Positions 1,268-39,943 of a DNA stretch of 48,947 nt are shown here, piece by piece; the first letter of the stretch is position 1; the number at the start of each line of letters is the position of its first letter. The stretch covers positions 1-48,947 of the forward strand of contig AJFK01000718.1 in NCBI GenBank assembly GCA_000467715.1. The letters are read 5' to 3'. Below the pieces are notes generated by a model. It was given only the letters and a program-made list of their open reading frames with translations. It had not been told where the DNA came from and searched no databases. The stretch is from Hysterium pulicare CBS 123377. Taxonomy: Eukaryota > Ascomycota > Dothideomycetes > Hysteriales > Hysteriaceae. Both the position numbers and the translations under genes were made by a program.

Positions 1268-4200
1268 ATGACCAACAACGAGGAACAATCGACAACCGGA
1301 GCTCCCGACTCTACGCGCAATGGAACCCAAACATCCCATCCTTCGAACACAGGAACATATCTAGACTATCATGGAATGGCAGGAACCATTGCACCTGAAT
1401 CTACTTCGAATGTTCGCAAGTCTACGGCTTTGTCTACATCCGATATGAGCACTGCAGTACCTTCACCGGATGAGAAAGAGAAAGCAATCGAAGCTGGGCA
1501 TTCACAACTTAATGGCAAGGAGAGAAGAGAGTCCGTTGCTACCGAGCCGGATGATGACGATGATAGCGACGAAGATGCTGGATTTGCCGCAATTAAACCA
1601 GCATCCAGCGCACCCCAGCGACCCAAGCTTGAGCAGGCTGGTTCGAAGCAATTGACCGAAGAGGACATCTTCCGTGCGCTCTCGAGACGCAGAACGAATA
1701 CAATCACGCGAACGAGTACCACCACCACAGTAGATGAGCACGATGAGGAACAGCAGGAGATCAATAAGCTTATGTCGCGCCTGTTCGGTCGCACTAGACA
1801 AGAAGCTTCTGAAGAAGAAAAAACTAGACATGTCGGACTCGTGTTCAAAAACCTCACAGTCAAGGGTATGGGTCTAGGCGCGGCATTGCAGCCTACCGTT
1901 GGCGATATTTTCCTAAACCTTCCTCGATCCTTGAAAAATCTCCTCACCAAGGGGCCGCGCAAGGCTGCTGGCAAGCCTCCCGTACGCACCATCATCGATG
2001 ACTTCTCGGGCTGTGTAAAACCTGGAGAAATGATACTAGTCCTAGGTCGCCCTGGAGCTGGATGCTCAACCTTTCTAAAAGTCATCGGAAACCAGAGGTT
2101 TGGATACGAAGAGGTTCTAGGCGAGGTCACATATGGCGGTACCGATGCGAAAGAGATGGCTAAGAAATACCGCAGCGAAGTACTATATAATCCCGAGGAC
2201 GACCTACATTACGCCACTTTGAAGGTCAAAGAGACCCTAAAGTTTGCTCTCAAGACGAGGACTCCCGGGAAAGAGTCAAGAAAGGAGGGTGAATCAAGGG
2301 CAGACTATGTCCGGGAATTTCTTAGAGTCATCTCGAAGCTCTTCTGGATTGAACATACAATGGATACCAAGGTTGGAAATGAGTTCGTACGAGGTGTGTC
2401 CGGTGGTGAGAAGAAGCGAGTCAGTATCGCCGAAGCAATGATCACCAAGGCCTCCGTACAGTCATGGGATAATAGCACGAAAGGTCTGGATGCTAGTACT
2501 GCATTGGAGTACGTCCAGAGTTTGCGATCACTCACGAACATGGCGCATATCTCGACTAGTGTCGCCCTTTACCAAGCCGGAGAGTCGCTCTTTGACCTTT
2601 TCGACAAGGTCCTTCTTATTGATGAAGGTCGCTGCTGTTACTTCGGTCCTACTGACCATGCTGCGAAGTATTTCAAAGATCTCGGGTTCGTGCATCCTGA
2701 TCGATGGACTACAGCGGATTTTCTGACATCAGTAACCGATGAGCACGAGCGACACATCAAGGAGGGTTTTGAGGACCGGATCCCGCGATCATCTGCGCAA
2801 TTTGGTGAGGTTTTCTTAAAGAGCGAGCAGCACCAGCAGAACCTTGCAGAGATCGCAGAATTCGAGCAAGAGACCCAAATTCTACTAGAAGAGCGCCGGG
2901 CGGCTAGCACTGAGATCACGAAAAAGAAGAACTTTACGCTCTCGTTCCAACAGCAGGTACTGGCTTGTACAAAGCGCCAATATCTTGTCATGATTGGTGA
3001 CAAGCAATCACTCGGAGGCAAGTGGGGTGGTATACTCTTCCAAGCCATTATTGTAGGAAGTCTGTTTTACAATCAGCCGAAGACTGCTGCCGGAGTGTTC
3101 ACTAGAGGAGGTGTCATATTCTTCATGTTGCTGGTGAGAATTCTTAAGCTGCAGACATAAATATCGAGACTGACTACATGGACCACAGTTTAACGCTCTT
3201 TTGGCATTGGCTGAATTAACCGCCGCCTTCGAATGTCGACCTATCTTGCTCAAGCACAAGAGTTTCTCCTTCTACAGACCCTCGGCTTTCGCAATCGCAC
3301 AAACGGTTATTGATGCTCCTCTGGTCCTGATTCAGGTTCTCATCTTCGATATCGTCGTCTACTGGATGTCGAATCTTCAACGGACGGCCTCCCAGTTCTT
3401 TATCAGCGTTCTCTTCCTCTGGCTTCTGACGATGACCATGTACGCCTTCTTCCGTTCTATTGGTTCCCTTGTTGGTTCACTTGATGCTGCTACAAGATTG
3501 ACGGGCATAGCGATACAAGCGCTTGTCGTCTATGCAGGTTACCTAATAAATCCTAAGAAGATGCATCCATGGCTTTCCTGGCTTCGGTGGATTAACCCAG
3601 TTCAATATGGCTTCGAGGCGTTGATGTCGAACGAGTTTTACAACCTGGAAATTCAGTGCGTGCCGCCGTATCTGGTTCCAATGGTGCCCAACGCGTCGCC
3701 TAAATATCAATCCTGCACCCTTCAAGGAAGCAAACCAGGTTCTATCACGGTAAATGGCGCCGACTATATTCAGGTCGCTTACAATTATTCACATGCACAT
3801 CTCTGGCGTAACTTAGGTATCATCGTAGCCTTCTTTCTTTTCTTCGTCGCCTTAACTGCTGTTGGAATGGAGCTCCAGAAGCCTAACAAGGGCGGCGGAG
3901 CTGTTACCATTTACAAGCGAGGTCAGGTCCCCAAAGCCGTTGAAAAAGCCATGGAGAATCATACTCAACCAAGAGACGAAGAGGCTGGCACGGCCCAGGC
4001 TGCGGGCGCAGGACATCCAAAGGACGAGCCCAATAGTGACAGCGAGGCCGAAGCCGTGAAGGGCATTGCCGCGAATGAGACTATTTTCACGTGGCAGAAC
4101 GTAAACTATACCATCCCCTACCAAAGTGGCGAGCGGAAGCTGCTTCAGGATGTTCAAGGTTATGTGAGACCTGGAAAACTGACTGCATTGATGGGGGCGT

Positions 4201-6205
4201 CAGGGGCTGGAAAAACTACGCTTTTGAACACGTTAGCTCAACGTATTCGATTTGGTGTAGTAACAGGCGACTTTCTTGTAGATGGGAGGCCTCTGCCTTT
4301 CTCCTTCCAACGCTCAACCGGCTTTGCGGAGCAGATGGATGTTCACGAGTCTACCGCAACCGTCCAGGAGGCTCTACGGTTCTCTGCCAAGCTACGCCAA
4401 CCCCGGGAGGTGCCTTTGAAAGAAAAGTATGAATACGTAGAGAGGATTATCGATCTCCTTGAGATGCGAGACATCGCTGGCGCTACCATCGGAAAGGTTG
4501 GGTCTGGATTAAATGCAGAGCAGAGAAAGCGAGTCACAATTGGTGTCGAACTAGCGAGTAAGCCGGAGCTTCTCATGTTCCTTGACGAGCCAACATCGGG
4601 ACTGGACTCAGGAGCAGCCTTCAACATTGTTCGATTCCTGCGTAAGCTAGCTGATGCTGGCCAAGCAATCCTCTGCACCATCCATCAACCCTCATCTGTT
4701 CTTTTCGAGTATTTTGATGAACTGCTCCTACTTAAGAGTGGCGGCCGAACTGTGTATTTCGGTGAGCTTGGCCATGATAGCCGGCAGCTACTGGATTATC
4801 TTGAGAGAAATGGAGCGAAGAAATGCCCGCCCAGAACCAACCCGGCAGAGTATATGCTAGAAGCTATAGGGGCAGGAAATCCGGACTACAAGGGTCCGGA
4901 CTACGGAGATATCTGGGCATCGTCGCCTGAGAACGAGAAATTGACCCAAGAAGTTCAAGAGATAATCTCCAATCGCCGAAATGCCTCTACCGGAGGGGAG
5001 ACAAACGATCAGCGAGAATACGCCATGCCGCTTGGTATTCAACTATACACGGTTATCCATCGAAGTTTTGTAGCTATATGGAGAGATCCTCCCTATGTCA
5101 TTGGAATGATGATGCTCCACATCTTCACCGGTCTATTCAACACCTTTACTTTCTGGCATCTTGGAAACAGTCAAATCGATATGCAGTCAAGACTCTTCTC
5201 TGTTTTCATGACTTTGACCATCACTCCGCCGCTTATCCAGCAGCTCCAACCTCGTTATCTCAACATGAGGTCGATATTCAAACAGCGAGAAGGAAATTCT
5301 AAAATCTATTCATGGGTGGCATTTGTCTGCGGAGCAATTCTGAGCGAAATTCCTTACCGCATTGTTGCTGGAACGCTTTACTGTACGAAGCCTATTTTCT
5401 TCACATACCAAACGTTGTTACTAACATTGAACAGGGTGCTGTTGGTACTGGGCAACGTGGTTCCCGAGAGACACATACACGGCAGCAAGCATGTGGCTTT
5501 TTATCATCGTTCTTGAGTTTTACTATCTTGGCTTTGGCCAAGCTATCGCATCGTTTGCGCCCAACGATTTGCTAGCATCGTTACTAGTTCCTCTCTTCTT
5601 TACCTTTAGTAAGCCCACTCACACCAGGATACTACTTGGCATTCACTAATCCCCGCAGTTGTCAGCTTCTGTGGCGTCGTGGTTCCGTTTGCAGGACTGC
5701 CATATTTCTGGCGTTCGTGGATGTACTGGATCACTCCATTCAAATACCTCTTGGAGGGCATGTTGGCATTGCTGACCGATGGCCAACCGATTCGATGCGA
5801 AACATCCGAACTGGCTATCTTCCCTCCACCACCAGGCCAAAGCTGCCAATCCTACGCTGGAGCCTATGCTCAGCAAACCGGTGGATACGTGCAGACACAA
5901 CCCAACGGAGACTGCGGATACTGTCAATACTCGAGCGGTACTCAGTTCGCAGCAGGCTTCAATGTTTATCCCAAGAACATCTGGCGGGACTTTGGGATTA
6001 TGTGTAAGTGGCCAGCTCCATAATTAATATTCCATCGTTGCTAATACTGCTCCTAGGGGCATACATTATCTTCAATTTTATGGTCGTGTTCTTGTGCTCG
6101 TGGCTCTATCTCCAGGGCGGTCGCCAAATCAAAGCCTTCTTCAGCCCTGCAGCACGAAAGAACAAGAAAGAAATGAGGAAGAGACAAGAAGGTGATGCGG
6201 CTTAG
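1268..6205 (+). CDS. PDR/CDR-type ABCG transporter (full-size drug efflux pump)
   Basis: Full-size ABC transporter with the pleiotropic-drug-resistance layout (NBD-TMD)2, expected in the plasma membrane exporting xenobiotics or lipids. Five exons fit with all frames kept: 1268-3133, 3189-5382, 5435-5608, 5659-6003, 6057-6205, giving 1575 residues, a normal length. NBD1 has the degenerate Walker A GRPGAGCST (Cys in place of Lys, about residue 260), signature VSGGEKKR (about 375) and WDNSTKGLD. NBD2 has a canonical Walker A GASGAGKTT (about 957), the degenerate signature LNAEQRKR (about 1062) and FLDEPTSGLD (about 1083). This asymmetry is normal for the family. Intron 1 separates FFMLL from FNALLALAEL, and the second TMD keeps FCGVVVPF and WMYWITPFKYLLEGML. 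The start is the ATG that opens MTNNEEQ; the frame is open further upstream but has no ATG there. The substrate cannot be told from sequence. Confidence 0.93.
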
Positions 6206-7302: not shown

Positions 7303-9525
7303 ATGGCTTCAGCTATTAAAGGAGCCCCGTCCCCGCCTCTTCGAACATCATCACCAGCTCCATTGGCCCAAGACTTCGTCCGTCAACAGGTGTCCAAGCA
7401 GCAACGTACCAATTACCATTCCTCCTCCCTCGCAAAAGGCGTAACGAACATCATGGTTTCTCAAAGCGTCAACAAGACTGCCCTCCACCCTACCGGTGTC
7501 CAGTGAGTAACCCCCGCGGAGGACAACGTCTTTTATATACAATCATGGCTTGCGCTAATTCAGGAACTTTATAGGCCGCAGAAGGAGCACACTGAAATCG
7601 AAGAAGAACTTCACGAGAAGGCACACATCGACTATGACCGTGTAGCAATTGTATGTCCCCAACGTCCCCGTCTACAAGCTTCCCCACTAACAGCTGTCCT
7701 CCCAGGTCGCCAATCCTTCCGTCGCCGCCCTCTACGAAGATGCCCTCGTCTACGAAAGCGGTTCTGCCATCACATCATCTGGAGCACTATCGGCATACTC
7801 AGGAGCAAAGACGGGTCGCTCACCTTCGGATAAACGCATCGTGAAGGAAGAAAGCTCGGATAAGAACGTATGGTGGGGTCCTGTCAATAAGCCGATGACA
7901 CCCGATGTAAGTGAGACCTGGAATTGCTCTTCGTTCTCAGCTCTCAGCTTTCGTTTGGCGCTGGCCATCAGTCCTGTGAAAAATCGGCAGGAGACGTCAT
8001 CCAAGCAAAGTGCGTTACCGAGGGTCGTTCCGAATCGGAAACGATCCATGTGCTCTTTGCATGCCGTGGCGTTCCCCGCATGATGTTCTTGCAGGGACCG
8101 CTTGCTTTTGCCGCCGCGGCTTAACTCCATCACGTGGTCTCCCAGCATTTGACTAACGCTTTTCAGGTCTGGAAAATCAACCGTGAACGTGCCATCGACT
8201 ACCTCAACACGAGGAATCGTATTTACGTCGTCGATGGGTTCGCAGGATGGGACGAGCGATACAGGATCAGAGTGCGAGTCGTCTGCGCACGTGCCTATCA
8301 CGCTCTTTTCATGCGAAACATGCTCATTCGTCCGTCGAGAGAGGAACTTGAGGGATTCCACCCCGACTATGTCATCTACAACGCTGGCGCTTTCCCTGCG
8401 AATCGATTCACCACTGGTATGACTTCGTCGACATCGGTAGCCATCAACTTCGCCGAGAAGGAGATGGTTATCCTCGGTACTGAGTACGCTGGTGAAATGA
8501 AGAAGGGTATCTTCACAGTTCTCTTCTACGAGATGCCCGTCAAGCACAACGTCCTAACTCTTCACTCCTCGGCAAACGAAGGCAAGAATGGCGATGTCAC
8601 TGTCTTCTTCGGTCTCTCCGGTACGGGCAAGACAACACTGTCTGCGGATCCAAAGCGTGCCCTCATTGGTGACGACGAACACTGCTGGAGTGACAAGGGT
8701 GTTTTCAACATCGAAGGTGGCTGCTATGCCAAATGCATTGGCCTCTCGGCAGAGAAAGAACCCGACATTTTCGGTGCCATCAAATTCGGTGCCATCCTAG
8801 AAAACGTCGTCTTCGACCCCGAAACCCGTGTCGTTGACTATGACGATGATACCTTAACAGAAAACACACGATGTGCCTATCCAATCGAGTACATCGAGAA
8901 CACCAAGATCCCCTGCGTCAGCACCAACCACCCCAAGAACATCATCCTCCTCACCTGCGACGCCCGCGGCGTTCTCCCACCCATCTCGAAACTCAACACC
9001 GAACAAACCATGTACCACTTCATCTCCGGCTACACCTCCAAGATGGCCGGTACCGAGCAAGGCGTAACAGAACCCCAAGCAACCTTCTCATCCTGCTTCG
9101 CCCAACCCTTCTTAGCCCTCCACCCAATGCGCTACGCCAAGATGCTCGCCAACAAAATCGCTGAGCACAAAGCCGACGCCTGGCTCCTCAACACCGGCTG
9201 GGTTGGTGCAGGCGCCACAACCGGCGGCAAGCGCTGCCCACTGAAGTACACACGCGCCATCCTCGACGCCATCCACTCGGGCGAACTCGCCAAAGCAGAC
9301 TACGAAGTCTACGAGACCTTCAACCTCTCCGTACCCAAGAGCTGCCCCAACGTCCCCGACGAGCTCCTCAACCCAGCCAAGTCGTGGAACGGGACAGCGG
9401 ATTTCAAGGGCGAGGTGAAGAAGTTGGGAAGTCTGTTTATGGAGAATTTCCGGAAGTATGAGGATGAGGCTACGACGGAGGTTGTGAAGGCGGGTCCGCA
9501 TGTGTGTTGTGATTGCAAACATTAG
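7303..9525 (+). CDS. acuF: Phosphoenolpyruvate carboxykinase (ATP)
   Basis: Converts oxaloacetate and ATP to phosphoenolpyruvate, CO2 and ADP, the committed step of gluconeogenesis in the cytosol. Exons 7303-7502, 7575-7650, 7706-7906 and 8167-9525 join in frame to 611 residues. Family motifs are clear: [15 protein letters not shown], the P-loop [11 protein letters not shown] (about residue 308), the metal/nucleotide motif LIGDDEHCW, and [16 protein letters not shown]. The second ATG at 7453 ([13 protein letters not shown]) would give 561 residues and begins where most fungal orthologues begin, so the 50-residue Ser/Pro/Gln-rich extension from 7303 may be leader rather than protein. Intron 3 (260 nt) is four times the usual size here. 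The symbol follows the Aspergillus name. Confidence 0.95.
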
Positions 9526-10769
9526 ATGAGATGAGTGTGGGGTTTTGTTGACTTTTCTTGCAGATTGATTGATTTTGGACCATCACGGGGTTAGTCGTTT
9601 CCTTTTGTTGTGATGAAGACGAAGACGAAGACGATGATGTTGAGATGGGATGGATGGGATGATAAAAGATGTATTATTTCCTTTGGCATCTTTACCCTTT
9701 TCTTGTTTATACTCTGGAAGCGTCTTGGGATGGGGATTCTATCTATCTTCCCCGGGATATTTTCTTTATCTTGAGGAGAGGATGCGGGAAGCTGGGAGGC
9801 AGGTCCCTGGAAGGAATATATTATGAGCATGTGGAAGAATATAGGATAGGGAGCTGGGAGTTGAGTAGTAAAATATTAAATCATTGAGAATATTCTTGGT
9901 TACAGGCTTGGATGTGATGAGTGAGGATTATCCTATACTAAAGAAGGTTATGCAACAGAATGAGGGTATACTCCGGTCGGCATCACAGCCGGGACGTTTG
10001 CGGGTTCTATATTCTAGCGGTCCCGCTTACGGAACTCGTGATTTAGCCTAGCCAGAGGTCCAAGTATGAAATACATACATATCTCATCACCAAACTTCCT
10101 GGGTAAGACTAGGAAGTTTGGTACTATGTGTGATCCATGAGGGCGATGATTGAAATTGTGGAGACCTGTCTGAAGGATAAATGCTCGGGCCGCTTGGTGG
10201 CTTGGGCGCACGATTAGGTGTAGAGAGAGCTTCTAGCTTCACTTTTCTTACACAGTCAACAACAGCAGTGTATTTAAATAAGAACTTCGATGTCCGCTGA
10301 AAGATAGATGCTCCTCTACATTCATGAGACCAAGCTTAACTGTGGTTGATGCGCAACCCGAACTCCAGCAAATTACTTCACTCGGTGTGGTATGTACATG
10401 CTCTTGTATACTCAATGTCACTTGTTTTTGTGATAAGTTTTGTGATAAACGGTATATATGATAATGTACCAGTAAAAAACAGCAAAACCTTTCGTACCGC
10501 GTCAGGCTAGGTAAGTTTCAAGGTTGGCAATCTATATTGGCCTCTTTTAGGTCTACGCACAAATCAGGAAGGCCTTCACCATCCATCCGCCACGTTCAAT
10601 CCTGGGACGTGCTCTCATGCCATCTTTGGCCGCCAACTCCGCCAAGTTCATTCACCACACGGAACCTTCTCGGTCCGAGAAGGGCTTTACTACTTCTCAC
10701 CTCTTCCTCACCTTTTCTACCTCCAGACTCCACGACCACAGAAGCTGTAGGACGTCCGAATACCTCACC
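9526..10769. other. Intergenic, no gene seen
   Basis: 3' flank of PEPCK, then the promoter and leader of the next gene. It contains a short GAC/GAT-rich run near 9616-9640 and AT-rich stretches near 10430-10480. No reading frame here carries a recognisable motif. Confidence 0.5.
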
Positions 10770-12691: not shown

Positions 12692-13574
12692 ATGGCGGAA
12701 GTTCAGACTTCGGCTGCCATCAATATTTCCTGCATTGCCCTCAGCATGCACAAGACTCTCTACGTAGCACCCAATGAAACCTCTGCTGACATTCACAAAC
12801 GTGTTAGTGCGCTCCTTCGTCTACCCAGGCACCGAAAGCTCCGCTTTATCGACCAGTCCGGATCAAGTTTGAGTGCTACTTATACTAGTTTCATGACAGC
12901 CCAAGACGTCGAAGTGGTACTGGTTGGGACGGATAAAGACGATGCGAATCGCCAACGCTACAACGAACTGGTATGAAGGGTTGAATACCTACATTTGTGA
13001 TACGGTAATGCGTACTAATAACCCATAGGTCCAAGAGATTCAAGCTAATTGGGGATTGAATGACATCGCCTTAGCGATTCCCCTACACATTCGCCCACGC
13101 GTGGAAGATTCTCATCATCGTAAGGCGAAGTTCTTTGATGATAAGGGATTCGAAGATCCGTCAAACTGGTCACTGCGCCTCATCAGTGAACTGTTCAATC
13201 TCTCAGTGGCCACCAAGGATATGCAGTCAGCGCACCGAGTGCTCCAAGACTGTGTGTATTCAAGACTTGAGAACGTGGGGCTTGAAGGGCAGATCGAATA
13301 TGGAGACTCTGTGAAGGGTAGTGCGATCCCGGAGGCTTTGCCTGTGGACATTAAAAACGCCGTGATCAAAATTACCGGGAAGGTGAATGCGGATGCTTCT
13401 GGTGGACTTGATGAGCCTGAATCTGCGCTGGACACCGAGCCGTAAGTCCTGCTTCATGCTCCTTTCGTTCAAAGCCTTTCACTCACACGCATAATCTGGA
13501 GCAGGTACGGCGCCTTGAATGACTCTGAGCTCACGATGTCCGAATCTTCTCGCGGTCCAGCTGAAGATACGTAG
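12692..13574 (+). CDS. Uncharacterised protein: possible ubiquitin-like N-terminus plus NWG-type module
   Basis: Three exons (12692-12970, 13029-13441, 13505-13574) join in frame to 253 residues. The first intron has a GTATGA donor and TACTAAT branch site; the second has a perfect GTAAGT donor and removes an apparent stop codon that overlaps the donor. Residues about 8-75 alternate strand-strand-helix-strand (AINISCIALS, KTLYVAPNE, ADIHKRVSALLRL, KLRFIDQSG, DVEVVLVG), the order of a beta-grasp/ubiquitin-like fold; this is inference from pattern only. Residues about 88-210 match the module of the preceding gene: RYNELVQEIQANWG, AIPLHIRPRV, PSNWSLRL, SAHRVLQDCVYSR, VDIKNAVIKI. The ATG at 12692 (CAAGATGG context) is preferred to 12602, which would add a hydrophobic leader not expected in such a protein. 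Confidence 0.75.
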
Positions 13575-14281: not shown

Positions 14282-16310
14282 ATGGCAGCAGTGTTTATAC
14301 CTCCTTCGCCTCAGGTATTCTCCGCCATGACTACTCGTCGAGTACCTTTGGCGAGCGTCCCCAACGCTACGAACTCGCCATTTCGCACCGTCGCCGCAGC
14401 TGGTGGAAAGAGACAAAGGTCTCACGCCAGTGACCAACGCGAATTGCCCTATGGACAGCCTCCTCCAGCTAAGAAGCAAATTATAGAGGTAGACGACGCA
14501 GAATCTCGCCGCCATGGCCTCGGTCGAAGAAGTGGTGCTCCACCAACCGCCTTTCAGAAAAAGCTCGAAGCTGTTCGAGAAGCTAAAGCAGTCCCAAAGC
14601 CAGCCGAGAAAGCTCAAAAGACAGTAACTGACAATTTAGAAACAATACGACAATGGCAGAAACATTACAAGAAGATGTTCCCCTCCTTCGTGTTTTACTT
14701 TGACGGTATTCCAGATGATGTACGGAATAGAGTTCTAAGACAAGCACGCGCCCTCGGTGCTGTAAGTGGCTTCCTATGTCAGCTCCGAATGTTTCACAAG
14801 CTGACTCTCCATATAGCAAGATGAAAAGTTCTTCTCAAAAGCAGTCACGCACGTCGTCACAACGCGTCCGATCCCGGCGGAGCTTGATACCAGCTCCGGA
14901 AACACTCACACATCTTCATCGACTCAGAGTGGTAACGGACCAGTTCGTACAATCAACCCCTCAGCCCTCGAAGCACAACATTCGAAGTCAAAATCCGTTT
15001 TTGATGCCGCGCTGCAGAAAGCCAACAATGGAGATATTCTTTACAAAGCAAGGGAAATGGGGATGAAGATATGGTCGGCAGAGAAGCTTCAACGAATGCT
15101 AAGTACCATGTTCAATACCGACACGGGCGAACAGCCACCGGATTATACAACCACGCGTCGTGGGTCTGTCGTTGCGCAACCCAGGACAGGACGTCAAGCC
15201 GATCTTCAGAAGCTGCTGCAAAATGAGAAGCTCAATGGACCCGCTGATCGAGATTTCACGGTTGCAACACAAGAGATGGTTCAGCTGCGGGGATACTATA
15301 TCTACATTCATGACATGGATGAGAATACGAGACCTGTAATGGTTCGGGAATACTCTAAGGTTGCTGCGAAAGAGGAGGGCAAATGGCCACAGTTTCGTAT
15401 CACGGGTCCTGGAAAATGTCCTTTCGTAGAAGACCAAAGTCATCTGAAACGCGTCCAACAGGAACAGGAGGAGGAGCGGACAACCAGAGACCAAAGAGCA
15501 CCTACAGTTACCACACGGACACGTGCTGCGGCTGCTCTAGAAGCGTCGAACCAAACGGGTGAACGTCGAGCCTTGGGCGAAAATAACAATCTTGCGAAAA
15601 GGCCTACAAGTGCTGCTGGTCAAGTCGCAGGCACAGGAAATCCTGCCAAACCGCTTGGTCCTCCTAAGATGATACCTGCCCAGAGAGGTAACACAGACAG
15701 CATGCCTCCTTTGTTTGGAAGCGCACAGGCGAGCATTCGTGCTATACCCAGATTTGCCGGAGGCGAACCGGTCGCTTCAGGCATTCAACCTTCCAACGTG
15801 ACATCTGCCATCCGGTCTCAGATGATATCCTCGACAGCGGCCGCTCCTGGTGCAAGAGTCAATAGTAAAGAGATGAACCAGTTGAAGAGGAAGGTGCTTG
15901 AGAAGAATAGTGTACCTTCAGCCAACAGCATGCCATCATCATATATGAACGAAGTAAGAGCAGCAATCAATAACGATGGACCGCCGCCAAGAGCCGCGAA
16001 ACGTAAAGCCCAAGAAACGCTTGGGCAGATTCACGAAGATATGACACCATCGGAAGAAGAGAGGCACATGCGGAAGATTGCAGTTATGCGTCGTAAGAAG
16101 GCCCCGGAGAAGGAGCTCAAACCGGGTTACTGCGAGAACTGCCGGGAGAAATTCAATGACTTTGATGAGGTAAGCTTCATGCTCGTCTTCGGTATCCACC
16201 TACTAACGAACTCGCAGCATGTTGTGTCTCGCAAACATCGCAAATTCGCTCTATCCATCGAAAACTGGCGAGAGCTAGATGACCTCTTAGCACAGCTCAT
16301 CCGTCAGTGA
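14282..16310 (+). CDS. Dbf4/NimO-like regulatory subunit of the Cdc7 kinase
   Basis: Regulatory subunit of the Dbf4-dependent kinase, which phosphorylates MCM helicase to fire replication origins in S phase. Exons 14282-14761, 14817-16169 and 16218-16310 give 641 residues. Evidence: an N-terminal RRVPLASVPNATNSPFR block as in fungal homologues; a BRCT-like motif-N segment (about 120-185) with FYFDGIPDD, QDEKFFSKAVTHVVTTRPIP; motif-M residues around KIWSAEKLQRML and PFVEDQSHLKRVQQ; and a C-terminal DBF4-type zinc finger PGYCENC...FNDFDEHVVSRKH (Cys-X2-Cys, His-X5-His) split by the last intron exactly before its first His. The middle is low-complexity and basic. The start at 14282 (MAAVFIPPSP) is chosen by resemblance to fungal orthologues; 14327 is the next ATG. 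Confidence 0.92.
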
Positions 16311-18199: not shown

Positions 18200-19297
18200 T
18201 CAAGTCCCTCCTGATCTAGACTTCTCACCGATCAGCCTTTCGAACTCAGAAAGCTGGTCTTGTGATATCGGGTATGTATGTTCAGGCGCTGGGTATGCCC
18301 TACTCTTCACTTCATCCCTATAAGCCTGGATAGCTCGCATACTCTCCCCCCATACATCCCCATACTTCTTCACAAATTTAGGTAGGAAGCGACCTGGAGG
18401 GAAGTAACCCAACATATCCACCTGCACGAGAACTTGGCCCGAGCAGCCGTTACCGGCGCCAATGCCGATGGTTGGGATACTGAGTTTCTTCGTTACGAGG
18501 GCGGCAACTTCAGGGGGAACGGCTTCCAGTACGACGGCGAAGGCGCCGGCTTCTTGCACCGCGAGCGCATCTTCGAGGAGGCTTAGGGCGGAGGCAGTGG
18601 TTTTGCCTTGGACTCGGAAGCCGCCCAGGGCGTTCTGGCGTTGGGGTGTGAGACCGACGTGGCCGAGGACGGGGATGCCGCAGCTGGTGATTTTGGAGAT
18701 TGTGGAGGCCATTTCGATGCCGCCTTCTAGCTTTATGGATTTCACCCGGCCTTCTTTTATCATGCGGATGGCGGATTCGAGGGCTTGGGAGGGGGATATT
18801 TCGTAGGAGCCCATTGGGAGATCGCCGACCTGGAGGAAGTAGTTGTTAGTATTAGGTCACGGGGAAGAGCTAGGGGGAGAGGAATGGGTTCATACAGTGA
18901 AGGCGCCCTTTGTAGCTCGGGCGACAGACCGACAATGCAGGAGCATTTCTTCCATTATTACTTCGCTTGTATCCTCCATTCCTAGAGCTACCATGGCGAG
19001 ACTGTCGCCGACGAGTATCATGTCCATACCAGCATGGTCGGCGACGTGGGCGGAAGGGAAGTCATGGGCGGTTATCATGGTGATAGGTTCATTCTTTCGG
19101 TAGAGAGATTGAAGGGTGTTGATGGTAACGGTCTTGCGGTATGGAGTAGCAGCACCCAAGGGAGAGTGCGAGCTCTGCCTGGCGTGAGTGACTGATAGAA
19201 TAGGCTGTGACACAGCCGGTAACAGTGAGGGTCTCCATGATTGCGACCGGAGTATTCGTGAGGAAGGCTGGAGTCGGTTGATCAAGGCACGCGACAT
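18200..19297 (-). CDS. panB: Ketopantoate hydroxymethyltransferase, mitochondrial
   Basis: 3-methyl-2-oxobutanoate hydroxymethyltransferase: transfers a hydroxymethyl group from methylene-tetrahydrofolate to ketoisovalerate in pantothenate (coenzyme A) synthesis. Two exons on the minus strand, 19297-18896 and 18829-18200, give 343 residues. The first about 50 residues (MSRALINRLQPSSRILR...) are Arg/Ser/Leu-rich without acids, a typical mitochondrial presequence. Family motifs: MITAHDFPSAHVADHAGMD, ILVGDSLAMV, GDLPMGSYE across the intron, KLEGG, PVLGHVGLTPQ, GIGAGNGCSGQVLV and LPKFVKKYGDV. These cover the metal site (Asp of GDS, Asp of GDLPMG) and the catalytic Glu expected in this TIM-barrel enzyme. 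Divergent from the Ubc8-like gene, with about 1 kb between starts. Confidence 0.94.
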
Positions 19298-20326: not shown

Positions 20327-21378
20327 ATGAGCAGTCCAAAGCGACGTATCGAGACGGATGTAGGTCATACAAAGCGTTCCATATGAGGGTACGAGGATAT
20401 CAGGATAAGGATAGATGCTGACGTTGATTTCGTTTGGGTGTTCAGGTCATGAAGTAGGTTGGAGAGAACCCCGGCCTTCGGGACATGTGCTAACAGGGCT
20501 ATAGGATGTATGTCTACTAGGCTACTTATTCTTCGGGGAGGAAGCTGAAATTTTGGCAGGTTGATGAGCGACTACGAAGTTACTCTGGTGAATGATAACA
20601 GTATGTTGGACCGCTTCACATCTTCTCCTAAGAGACACTGACGATTGACAGTGTCCGTCGAACCTCCGACCCCGTTCTTCTGGCTCCCCTTCCTCCTATA
20701 CTGACCTATTTCCAGGCAAGAATTCTATGTCAGGTTCAAAGGCCCAGAAGAAAGTGAGTTCCATCTCCTCCTTAAACCTCTATCCCCTTGCTAAGAACCA
20801 CCCAGCACCATTTCAAGGCGGTCTATGGAAAATCCACGTCGAACTCCCAGATCAATATCCATACAAGAGTCCCAGTATTGGCTTCGTGAATCGAATATTC
20901 CACCCCAATATTGACGAACTGTATGCGTCCTTTTTCTACGATAGAGATTCTCAATATATCTTTAACTATTATCATGACTAACTCCCTATACAGCTCCGGC
21001 TCCGTATGTCTCGACGTGATCAACCAGACCTGGTCACCCATGTACGACATGATCAACATCTTCGAAGTCTTCCTCCCACAGCTCCTCCGCTATCCGAACC
21101 CAACCGACCCCCTGAACGGCGAGGCGGCCGCGCTGCTAATGCGGGAACCAAAGAGCTATGACGCGAAAGTGAAGGGTACTGCCTATTTTCCTAACCCTTA
21201 TCCTCTTCCTTAAAGTCCCCACTAACACTCCACCTCAGAGTACGTACAAAAATACGCCTCCAAAGACGCCGCCGACGAAGCAGACGAAGACAGCGACGTC
21301 GACGACGAAATGAGCTCAGTCGGCAGCTACGAATCCGGCGAAGACGAAGAGCCCGCGGGGAACATGGAGGAGATCTAG
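20327..21378 (+). CDS. ubc8: Ubiquitin-conjugating enzyme E2, Ubc8/UBE2H type, with micro-exons
   Basis: E2 enzyme of the Ubc8/UBE2H family; in yeast it acts with the GID/CTLH ligase in degrading gluconeogenic enzymes. The best model has nine exons: 20327-20359, 20446-20453, 20505-20507, 20560-20600, 20652, 20716-20753, 20806-20920, 20994-21175, 21239-21378. They total 561 nt and 186 residues. It yields [47 protein letters not shown], then HPNID, the catalytic Cys in [15 protein letters not shown], and an acidic tail, as in Ubc8. Exons of 8, 3 and 1 nt sit between introns of 86, 51, 52, 51 and 63 nt. A simpler model, skipping the 3-nt exon and using a weak GTTGGA donor at 20605, gives VMKLMSD and NDNSMQ: the same length but with one residue lost and one gained relative to the family. 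The gene identity is sure; the micro-exons are inference. Confidence 0.9.
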
Positions 21379-27722: not shown

Positions 27723-29760
<2,038 letters not shown>

Positions 29761-38974: not shown

Positions 38975-39943
38975 TCAAGGTAAGCACGAGAAGAGCCCTT
39001 TCAGCTTGTTGTACACAGCCGTCTGCTCAGCAACATGTGCATCCGTCTTATCTGATGCGTCTCCCACACTAACACTGACATAACATCCAGACGTCCCTAC
39101 TACACTGGATTCCGTTGGTGGCTTCGAATTACCACAGCTTTCAGGATACGTCTCGCTGGTTACAGAGAAAATTCTGCTATAAACAAACTTGAACTGATTG
39201 ACAGTGGTACAGCTGGCCGTACTAGGAAAGTTGACGTTGAGCCATGTGTTATTTGGTAAGTAGGGAGTTCCAGACGCCAGCACATGGTTCGTCAAGTTGG
39301 TAGCCAAATCAGCGTAGATCTGATCGTAGGGTGGACTGCCGGTGGACGCAGTATATGAAGTTTGCGACCCGGTGGAACCAGAGAATGCGATTCCGGGGAT
39401 GCCTCTTTGCGAGACGGCGAATACGGTAGCTCCAACGGTGCCAGAGATATCGACTGTCGAACCGAGATTGGATCCAACGTTGGGACCGGCAACAGCGATG
39501 TCAGGCTTCGTGGTGCCGAAGAATTGGGGTGCGAAAGTATCGATACCGTATTGCATCGAGGTCGCGGGATATGAATTGACGTAGTTCAGCCGTGAATTCG
39601 ACGCATTATGGCCAGTTGCTGGGCTTCCGGGCGGACAGCTGCTGAACTCACATCCGTTCGTCACAGTCGTTGGTGTCCCAGTACTTGAACCTGAGGGAAT
39701 CGTCAGCGTTGGGGGCACTCCGGAAATGTCATTTCTTCAGAGTCTTCCAGCTCATCGCGTATACGAACCCGTTCCCGATTTGTCCAAAGCGGGCGCTGAA
39801 AGAACCACATCATGTCCAGCACCAGTTAAAGATTTGTAGAACGTTCGAATATTGATCTCAGCCCAGCCATCGTCATTTGACTGCACGATTCTAGCAGCCT
39901 GGACGCTCAAAGGAAGTAAAGTGAAAAAAGCGTGGACGCGCAT
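38975..39943 (-). CDS. Secreted SurE-type acid phosphatase/nucleotidase
   Basis: SurE family; members remove phosphate from nucleoside monophosphates or act as acid phosphatases with a divalent metal. Minus-strand exons 39943-39769 and 39690-38975 give 296 residues. A signal peptide (MRVHAFFTLLPLSVQA) suggests secretion, as in other fungal members. The metal motif NDDGWAE follows directly, then VVLSAPALDKSGTGSS across the intron, GSPATGHNAS, RLNYVNSYPATSMQYGI, the family block PDIAVAGPNVGSNLG, GTVGATVFAVSQRGIPGIAFSG. It ends in FSCLP. Intron donor GTTCGT, branch GCTGAC. Confidence 0.92.

Follow-up and report, generated by a model that had tools for sequence, protein, structure and literature searches.

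The window analyzed here is the whole of contig AJFK01000718.1 of the ascomycete Hysterium pulicare CBS 123377 (48,947 nucleotides, nt), one of the 596 contigs in a 37.2-Mb assembly (GCA_000467715.1). On its forward strand, at 20327–21378, lies a gene for a ubiquitin-conjugating enzyme (E2) of the Ubc8/UBE2H type, whose nine exons (33, 8, 3, 41, 1, 38, 115, 182 and 140 nt) when joined translate into 186 amino acids followed by a stop codon. The introns that separate them measure 86, 51, 52, 51, 63, 52, 73 and 63 nt and are GT-AG in all cases. Five of them interrupt the first 86 coding nucleotides, leaving internal exons of 8, 3, 41 and 1 nt, and the exons of 8, 3 and 1 nt fall within about 210 bp. 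As read from the DNA, this micro-exon structure, in which the trinucleotide GAT and a single T are both exons, is quite probably correct; taken separately, we have very little doubt that GAT is an exon and consider it highly likely that T is one.

The splice signals were judged against the genome itself. From 271,908 bases of its sequence we derived donor, acceptor, branch and length models by Viterbi training, which produced 86 gene models with 176 introns (median length 57 nt); the Ubc8-type gene was excluded from the training of signals and lengths, and the coding model was built from 45 long open reading frames (ORFs) of the same DNA. An earlier intron finder based on ORF windows, which had called 18 and then 23–54 introns against 9–23 on a reversed control, was discarded in favor of the Viterbi finder. 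Percentiles given below refer to the introns called in this way.

Exon 1 (20327–20359) is placed by the alignment to the N-terminus of yeast Ubc8 and is followed by intron 1 (20360–20445, phase 0; donor GTAGGT, branch GCTGAC, acceptor TTCAG), with a total score at the 61st percentile. Exon 2, the octanucleotide GTCATGAA (20446–20453), is needed for the residues V-M-K and is called by a gene finder that uses no protein information. After intron 2 (20454–20504, phase 2; GTAGGT, GCTAAC, TATAG; 86th percentile) comes exon 3, the GAT at 20505–20507, which completes the K codon and starts that of M; the same protein-free finder calls it with both untrained and trained signals. Intron 3 (20508–20559, phase 2; GTATGT, GCTGAA, GGCAG) scores at the 31st percentile. 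Exon 4 (20560–20600) rests on the reading frame and the Ubc8 alignment, and intron 4 (20601–20651, phase 1; GTATGT, ACTGAC, GACAG; 70th percentile) separates it from exon 5, the single T at 20652. This base, the middle one of the Met codon A|T|G, is preceded by AG, followed by GT and needed to keep the frame. Intron 5 (20653–20715, phase 2; GTCCGT, ACTGAC, TTCCAG) is at the 57th percentile, and each of introns 2–5 has its own donor, its own acceptor and a branch A located 10–11 nt upstream of the cut. Coordinates, exon lengths, splice dinucleotides, donors and the lengths of these four introns had all been proposed in an earlier note on this DNA and agree with the sequence. The rest of the gene consists of exon 6 (20716–20753; frame and Ubc8 alignment), intron 6 (20754–20805, phase 1; GTGAGT, GCTAAG, CCCAG; 48th percentile), exon 7 (20806–20920), intron 7 (20921–20993, phase 2; 51st percentile), exon 8 (20994–21175), intron 8 (21176–21238, phase 1; 30th percentile) and exon 9 (21239–21378), which encodes an acidic tail and the stop codon. 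Exons 7 and 8 were also recovered when the genome was searched for UQ_con and Ubc8 similarity, and the reading frame supports exons 8 and 9.

The 186-residue product contains a UQ_con domain (136.1 bits with the Pfam profile), and exon 8 encodes the stretch CLDVINQTW around the catalytic cysteine, found identical in human UBE2H (PDB 2z5d). With the first 161 residues as query, the closest matches were five Ubc8-type PDB chains (193–238 bits), the next E2 scoring 99.8 bits. A search of the protein against its own genome gave 16 matches. Three (94, 80 and 88% identity) were exons of the gene itself, and matches at other E2 loci reached 28–47%; judged by these similarities, no second E2 gene of the Ubc8/UBE2H type turned up in the genome. 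A search for an orthologue in related fungi found none; the contig collections yielded three distant prokaryote loci in the genome collection, which were left aside, and none in the viral one. A scan for 5.8S rRNA, with 39 of 1289 candidates scored, detected none.

To place the structure among its possible alternatives, we enumerated the parses from the start codon to exon 6, requiring scores above 0 for donors, −1 for acceptors and −8 for introns, and intron lengths of 40–130 nt. Among the 305 in-frame parses the full structure ranked first by splice-plus-coding score (8.80), and it also ranked first by summed similarity to four reference proteins, in agreement with the gene model and the phase argument of the earlier note. 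The second-ranked parse (8.37) keeps both GAT and T and uses a later acceptor at 20568, putting I in place of MLMS, with loss of conserved residues. Decoys were made by replacing the interior of each composite intron (two introns and the micro-exon between them, minus the first 6 and last 20 nt) with dinucleotide shuffles or random genome stretches. A decoy was counted when it contained a stop-free internal exon of 1, 4 or 7 nt (for T) or of 3, 6 or 9 nt (for GAT) with a summed two-intron score at least equal to that observed. The T arrangement was reached by 1 of 4000 and 3 of 4000 decoys (4 of 8000 over both types) and the GAT arrangement by none in either set of 4000 (0 of 8000). The true chance is even lower, because decoys need not match the Ubc8 residue. 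The micro-exon arrangement exceeds chance.

Two ways of dispensing with a micro-exon were already recognized in the earlier note, one losing a residue at one site and the other gaining one at another, and the frame indeed stays open in both. If GAT is not an exon, AA is joined to GTTGATG by removal of a 106-nt intron and the first helix is one residue short (VMKLMSD). If instead it is T that is no exon, use of the GTTGGA donor at 20605 joins AACAGTAT to GCAAG across a 111-nt intron, and the loop connecting the first two strands gains an extra Ser (NDNSMQEF); this would leave open that GAT is real. We compared four proteins, namely the full model, the form lacking GAT, the form with the extra Ser and the form with neither micro-exon. 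The full model aligns without gaps to residues 1–154 of yeast Ubc8 (PDB 8pmq), and in that order the four score 236.6, 230.6, 231.9 and 226.5 bits against the yeast protein, 230.2, 226.7, 229.0 and 225.4 against human 8pjn, 230.0, 226.5, 228.7 and 225.1 against human 2z5d, and 213.3, 208.6, 211.9 and 207.4 against Plasmodium 2onu. With Leishmania 1yf9 (192.5, 194.5, 189.7 and 190.7) the form lacking GAT is 2 bits better, so that the full model comes top in four of the five Ubc8-type chains and three of the four species. The residue encoded with GAT is present in the yeast, human and Plasmodium proteins, and in all four aligned species there is no additional residue where the Ser would sit. Nevertheless, that loop differs in length among orthologs (it is shorter by one residue in the human and Leishmania proteins) and the Ser costs little (4.7 bits against yeast, 1.2 against human 8pjn); protein length alone would favor the micro-exons only modestly. 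In the splice model, the 106- and 111-nt introns fall at the 4th and 5th percentiles of splice score and at the 90th and 91st of length, and the corresponding parses score 1.43 and 1.22. The donor GTTGGA, rightly described as poor in the earlier note, is at the 1st percentile, is used by none of the 176 called introns and has a strong GTATGT donor 4 nt upstream. In 500 resamplings of the training introns, the full structure led the form lacking GAT by about 8 nats on average (95% range 6.0–11.2) and the GTTGGA form by 7.7 nats (5.5–10.0), and neither lead was ever zero or below. With GAT also called by the protein-free finder and not reproduced in any decoy, a gene lacking this exon seems very improbable; the use of GTTGGA in place of T is scarcely easier to accept, and we regard it as improbable.

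A stronger competitor was overlooked in that first set of rivals, namely the 115-nt intron 20601–20715 that skips T, which has the strongest splice signals of them all (85th percentile). This and several other observations weigh against the full structure. The protein-free finder skips T and chooses this intron together with a shifted frame, reading afterward through the 52-nt intron 20754–20805 out of frame. The frame it follows is contradicted, because exons 6 and 7 show Ubc8 homology. On signals and length the T-skipping intron is about 1.2 nats worse than the T model, which it ties or beats in 33 of the 500 bootstraps, and it moves ahead once the length term is dropped. If the untrained starting matrices are used, the full structure outscores either of the two forms discussed above by just 1.8 nats; the training introns are themselves predictions, at least one of them wrong, and the splice models put no cost on tiny exons. 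Besides the preference of the Leishmania chain, the Pfam UQ_con profile fails to separate the four proteins (136.1, 135.5, 136.2 and 135.5 bits). Finally, the donor of intron 5 (GTCCGT) is at the 15th percentile, and the branch sites, proposed earlier to be CTAAC/CTGAC-like, are so in three of the four introns (GCTAAC, ACTGAC and ACTGAC), the one after GAT being a weak GCTGAA at the 7th percentile of the 176. A further rival supposes that a base is missing from the assembly where exon 4 ends in its junction, or that there is a real frameshift, the gene then having a single 115-nt intron there and no T exon; the strong signals of this intron and its choice by the protein-free finder speak for it. 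However, such an error must fall exactly on a splice junction in a frame that is otherwise intact, and chance would have to account for an internal AG-T-GT flanked by two good half-introns, at the rate seen in the decoys; we give this explanation the least credit of all. It is also conceivable that both micro-exons are real and T is partly skipped, with skipping and nonsense-mediated decay setting the level of Ubc8. This would extend the full structure and is compatible with it, and the closeness in score of the skipping intron to the T model and the stop that the skipped message meets in exon 7 speak for it, but ordinary splicing noise would look alike, and we consider it rather unlikely.

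Returning to the structure with both micro-exons, the sequence, frame, splice signals and family match are seen directly, and from the anatomy we infer that each intron of 51–63 nt would be recognized as a unit across itself (intron definition) and not across the exon. A 1-nt exon offers no room for exon definition. The U1 footprint at the donor of intron 5, which takes in the three bases upstream of the cut, shares sequence with the AG of intron 4, so that both introns cannot assemble together and would be forced to leave in turn, while the corresponding footprints of introns 2 and 3 would abut with no spare base. If intron 4 left first, AACA would be joined to T and the bases before the donor of intron 5 would change from AGT to CAT, raising the score of that donor from 2.89 to 3.69 nats; this makes a 5′-to-3′ order slightly more likely, as a weak indication. 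Were the outer sites to pair directly, T would be skipped; the message then shifts frame, runs into a stop within exon 7 and should be destroyed. That the five crowded introns are routinely spliced in an obligatory order, with outer-site pairing producing a decay-bound message that tunes the level of Ubc8, is a doubtful extension. As to the origin, new introns probably settled at distances of 8, 3 and 1 nt from existing introns, where the protein is so conserved that the intervening bases could not be lost. Such a compact gene, with exons of 8, 3 and 1 nt, would, on a minigene, make the order and the limits of intron-defined splicing directly testable, and it illustrates how annotation programs can lose or mistranslate genes with micro-exons.

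An arrangement of the stwintron kind was rejected, since none of the splice elements is interrupted: every one of introns 2–5 comes with a donor, an acceptor and a branch of its own, although one of these branches is weak. An introner-like origin was rejected as well, the composite introns being single copy and having no match in their own genome apart from themselves. A tandem duplication is unsupported, the one near match of 11 nt (GGATGTAGGTC at exon 1 against GGATGTATGTC at GAT) covering a donor motif. We also counted, over both strands of 272 kb, the places in which a good branch and acceptor are followed by a good donor, with thresholds chosen so that the T and GAT sites of the Ubc8-type gene would count. 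There was no excess of 1-nt or 3-nt tandems, with 4 at 1 nt, 6 at 3 nt and 2–11 at the other spacings of 2–30 nt; at 0 nt, where both motifs share bases, there were 23. With no general excess of tandems, the arrangement therefore seems to be a peculiarity of this locus. In a set of 163 successive same-strand intron pairs (cross-gene pairs included), the finder called four other very short exons, one of 14 nt and the remaining three of 0 nt. Two abutting introns of 53 and 54 nt in a protein kinase gene (28210–28316, forward strand) are most likely an artefact; the sequence of the second (28263–28316) continues the open frame of the exon that follows and resembles a kinase domain. The calls of the final model include a further abutting pair (13442–13560).

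The nearest gene called upstream of the Ubc8-type gene, on the opposite strand, codes for a ketopantoate hydroxymethyltransferase (18282–19238, reverse strand; PF02548). Farther away on the forward strand there are a Dbf4/Him1-type gene (14327–16310; PF08630, PF07535 and PF22437), an ATP-type phosphoenolpyruvate carboxykinase gene (7303–9572; PF01293, 707 bits) at about 11 kb from the Ubc8-type gene, and a large predicted protein (1268–6205) whose motifs, judged by eye, suggest a PDR-type ABC transporter. In yeast, gluconeogenic enzymes are degraded by the GID system, with Ubc8 acting as its E2; the proximity of the carboxykinase gene may be due to chance. In the nearly 13 kb between 34784 and 47665 there is a single ORF of at least 200 amino acids (38975–39718, reverse strand) and no gene called by the crude finder, with an ordinary G+C content of 43–51% per kb.

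The single-base exons of mitochondria belong to a different splicing system. Among nuclear genes, the published cases of 1-nt exons that we found belong to three gene families, plant APC11, plant VPS55 and Fusarium CYP621A, so that the near-uniqueness assumed in the earlier note, which cited one Arabidopsis case, is out of date. Full-text searches, with most subscription papers and all preprints outside their scope, gave no report of a single-nucleotide exon or microexon for Ubc8. If real, the Ubc8-type gene would be the second fungal gene family found with a 1-nt exon and the only one in which a message was seen to combine it with a 3-nt exon, the first such gene known to us, and a test bed for the handling of exons of near-zero length by the spliceosome.

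The 1-nt exon of Fusarium CYP621A, described with 18 RNA reads and 20 orthologs, resembles the present one in belonging to a fungal nuclear gene, in restoring the frame within a conserved motif and in lying in a composite intron more than twice the median length (139 nt in F. graminearum) (PMC12940212). The exon there is G, said by the authors to suit both cut sites, whereas here it is T; and that exon has RNA reads and orthologs behind it, with no 3-nt or 8-nt exons described beside it in the passages of the report on this exon (PMC12940212). Arabidopsis APC11 likewise has a 1-nt exon between GT-AG introns, for which its authors propose intron definition and stepwise removal, but it is a plant gene with a composite intron of 422 nt, and its proof came from complementary DNA and altered constructs; they also cite the 9-nt exon of potato invertase, in which the second intron leaves first (PMC4674806). 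The 1-nt microexon of plant VPS55 was omitted from annotations, with the protein altered when it is left out, as would happen here, although it is kept across land plants and supported by RNA sequencing and reverse-transcription PCR (PMC8831610). Fungal stwintrons, or complex intervening sequences, share with the proposed arrangement two adjacent short introns removed in consecutive reactions, but in them one intron splits a splice element of the other, while the introns of the Ubc8-type gene keep their own elements with 3 or 1 exonic bases between (PMC7138796). In the near intron pairs of Drosophila, intron positions are also a few bases apart (PMC2891723). Unlike those pairs, the close introns of the Ubc8-type gene would coexist, five of them at 8, 3, 41 and 1 nt from each other, which, if true, would contradict the working assumption that introns so close in position do not occur together.
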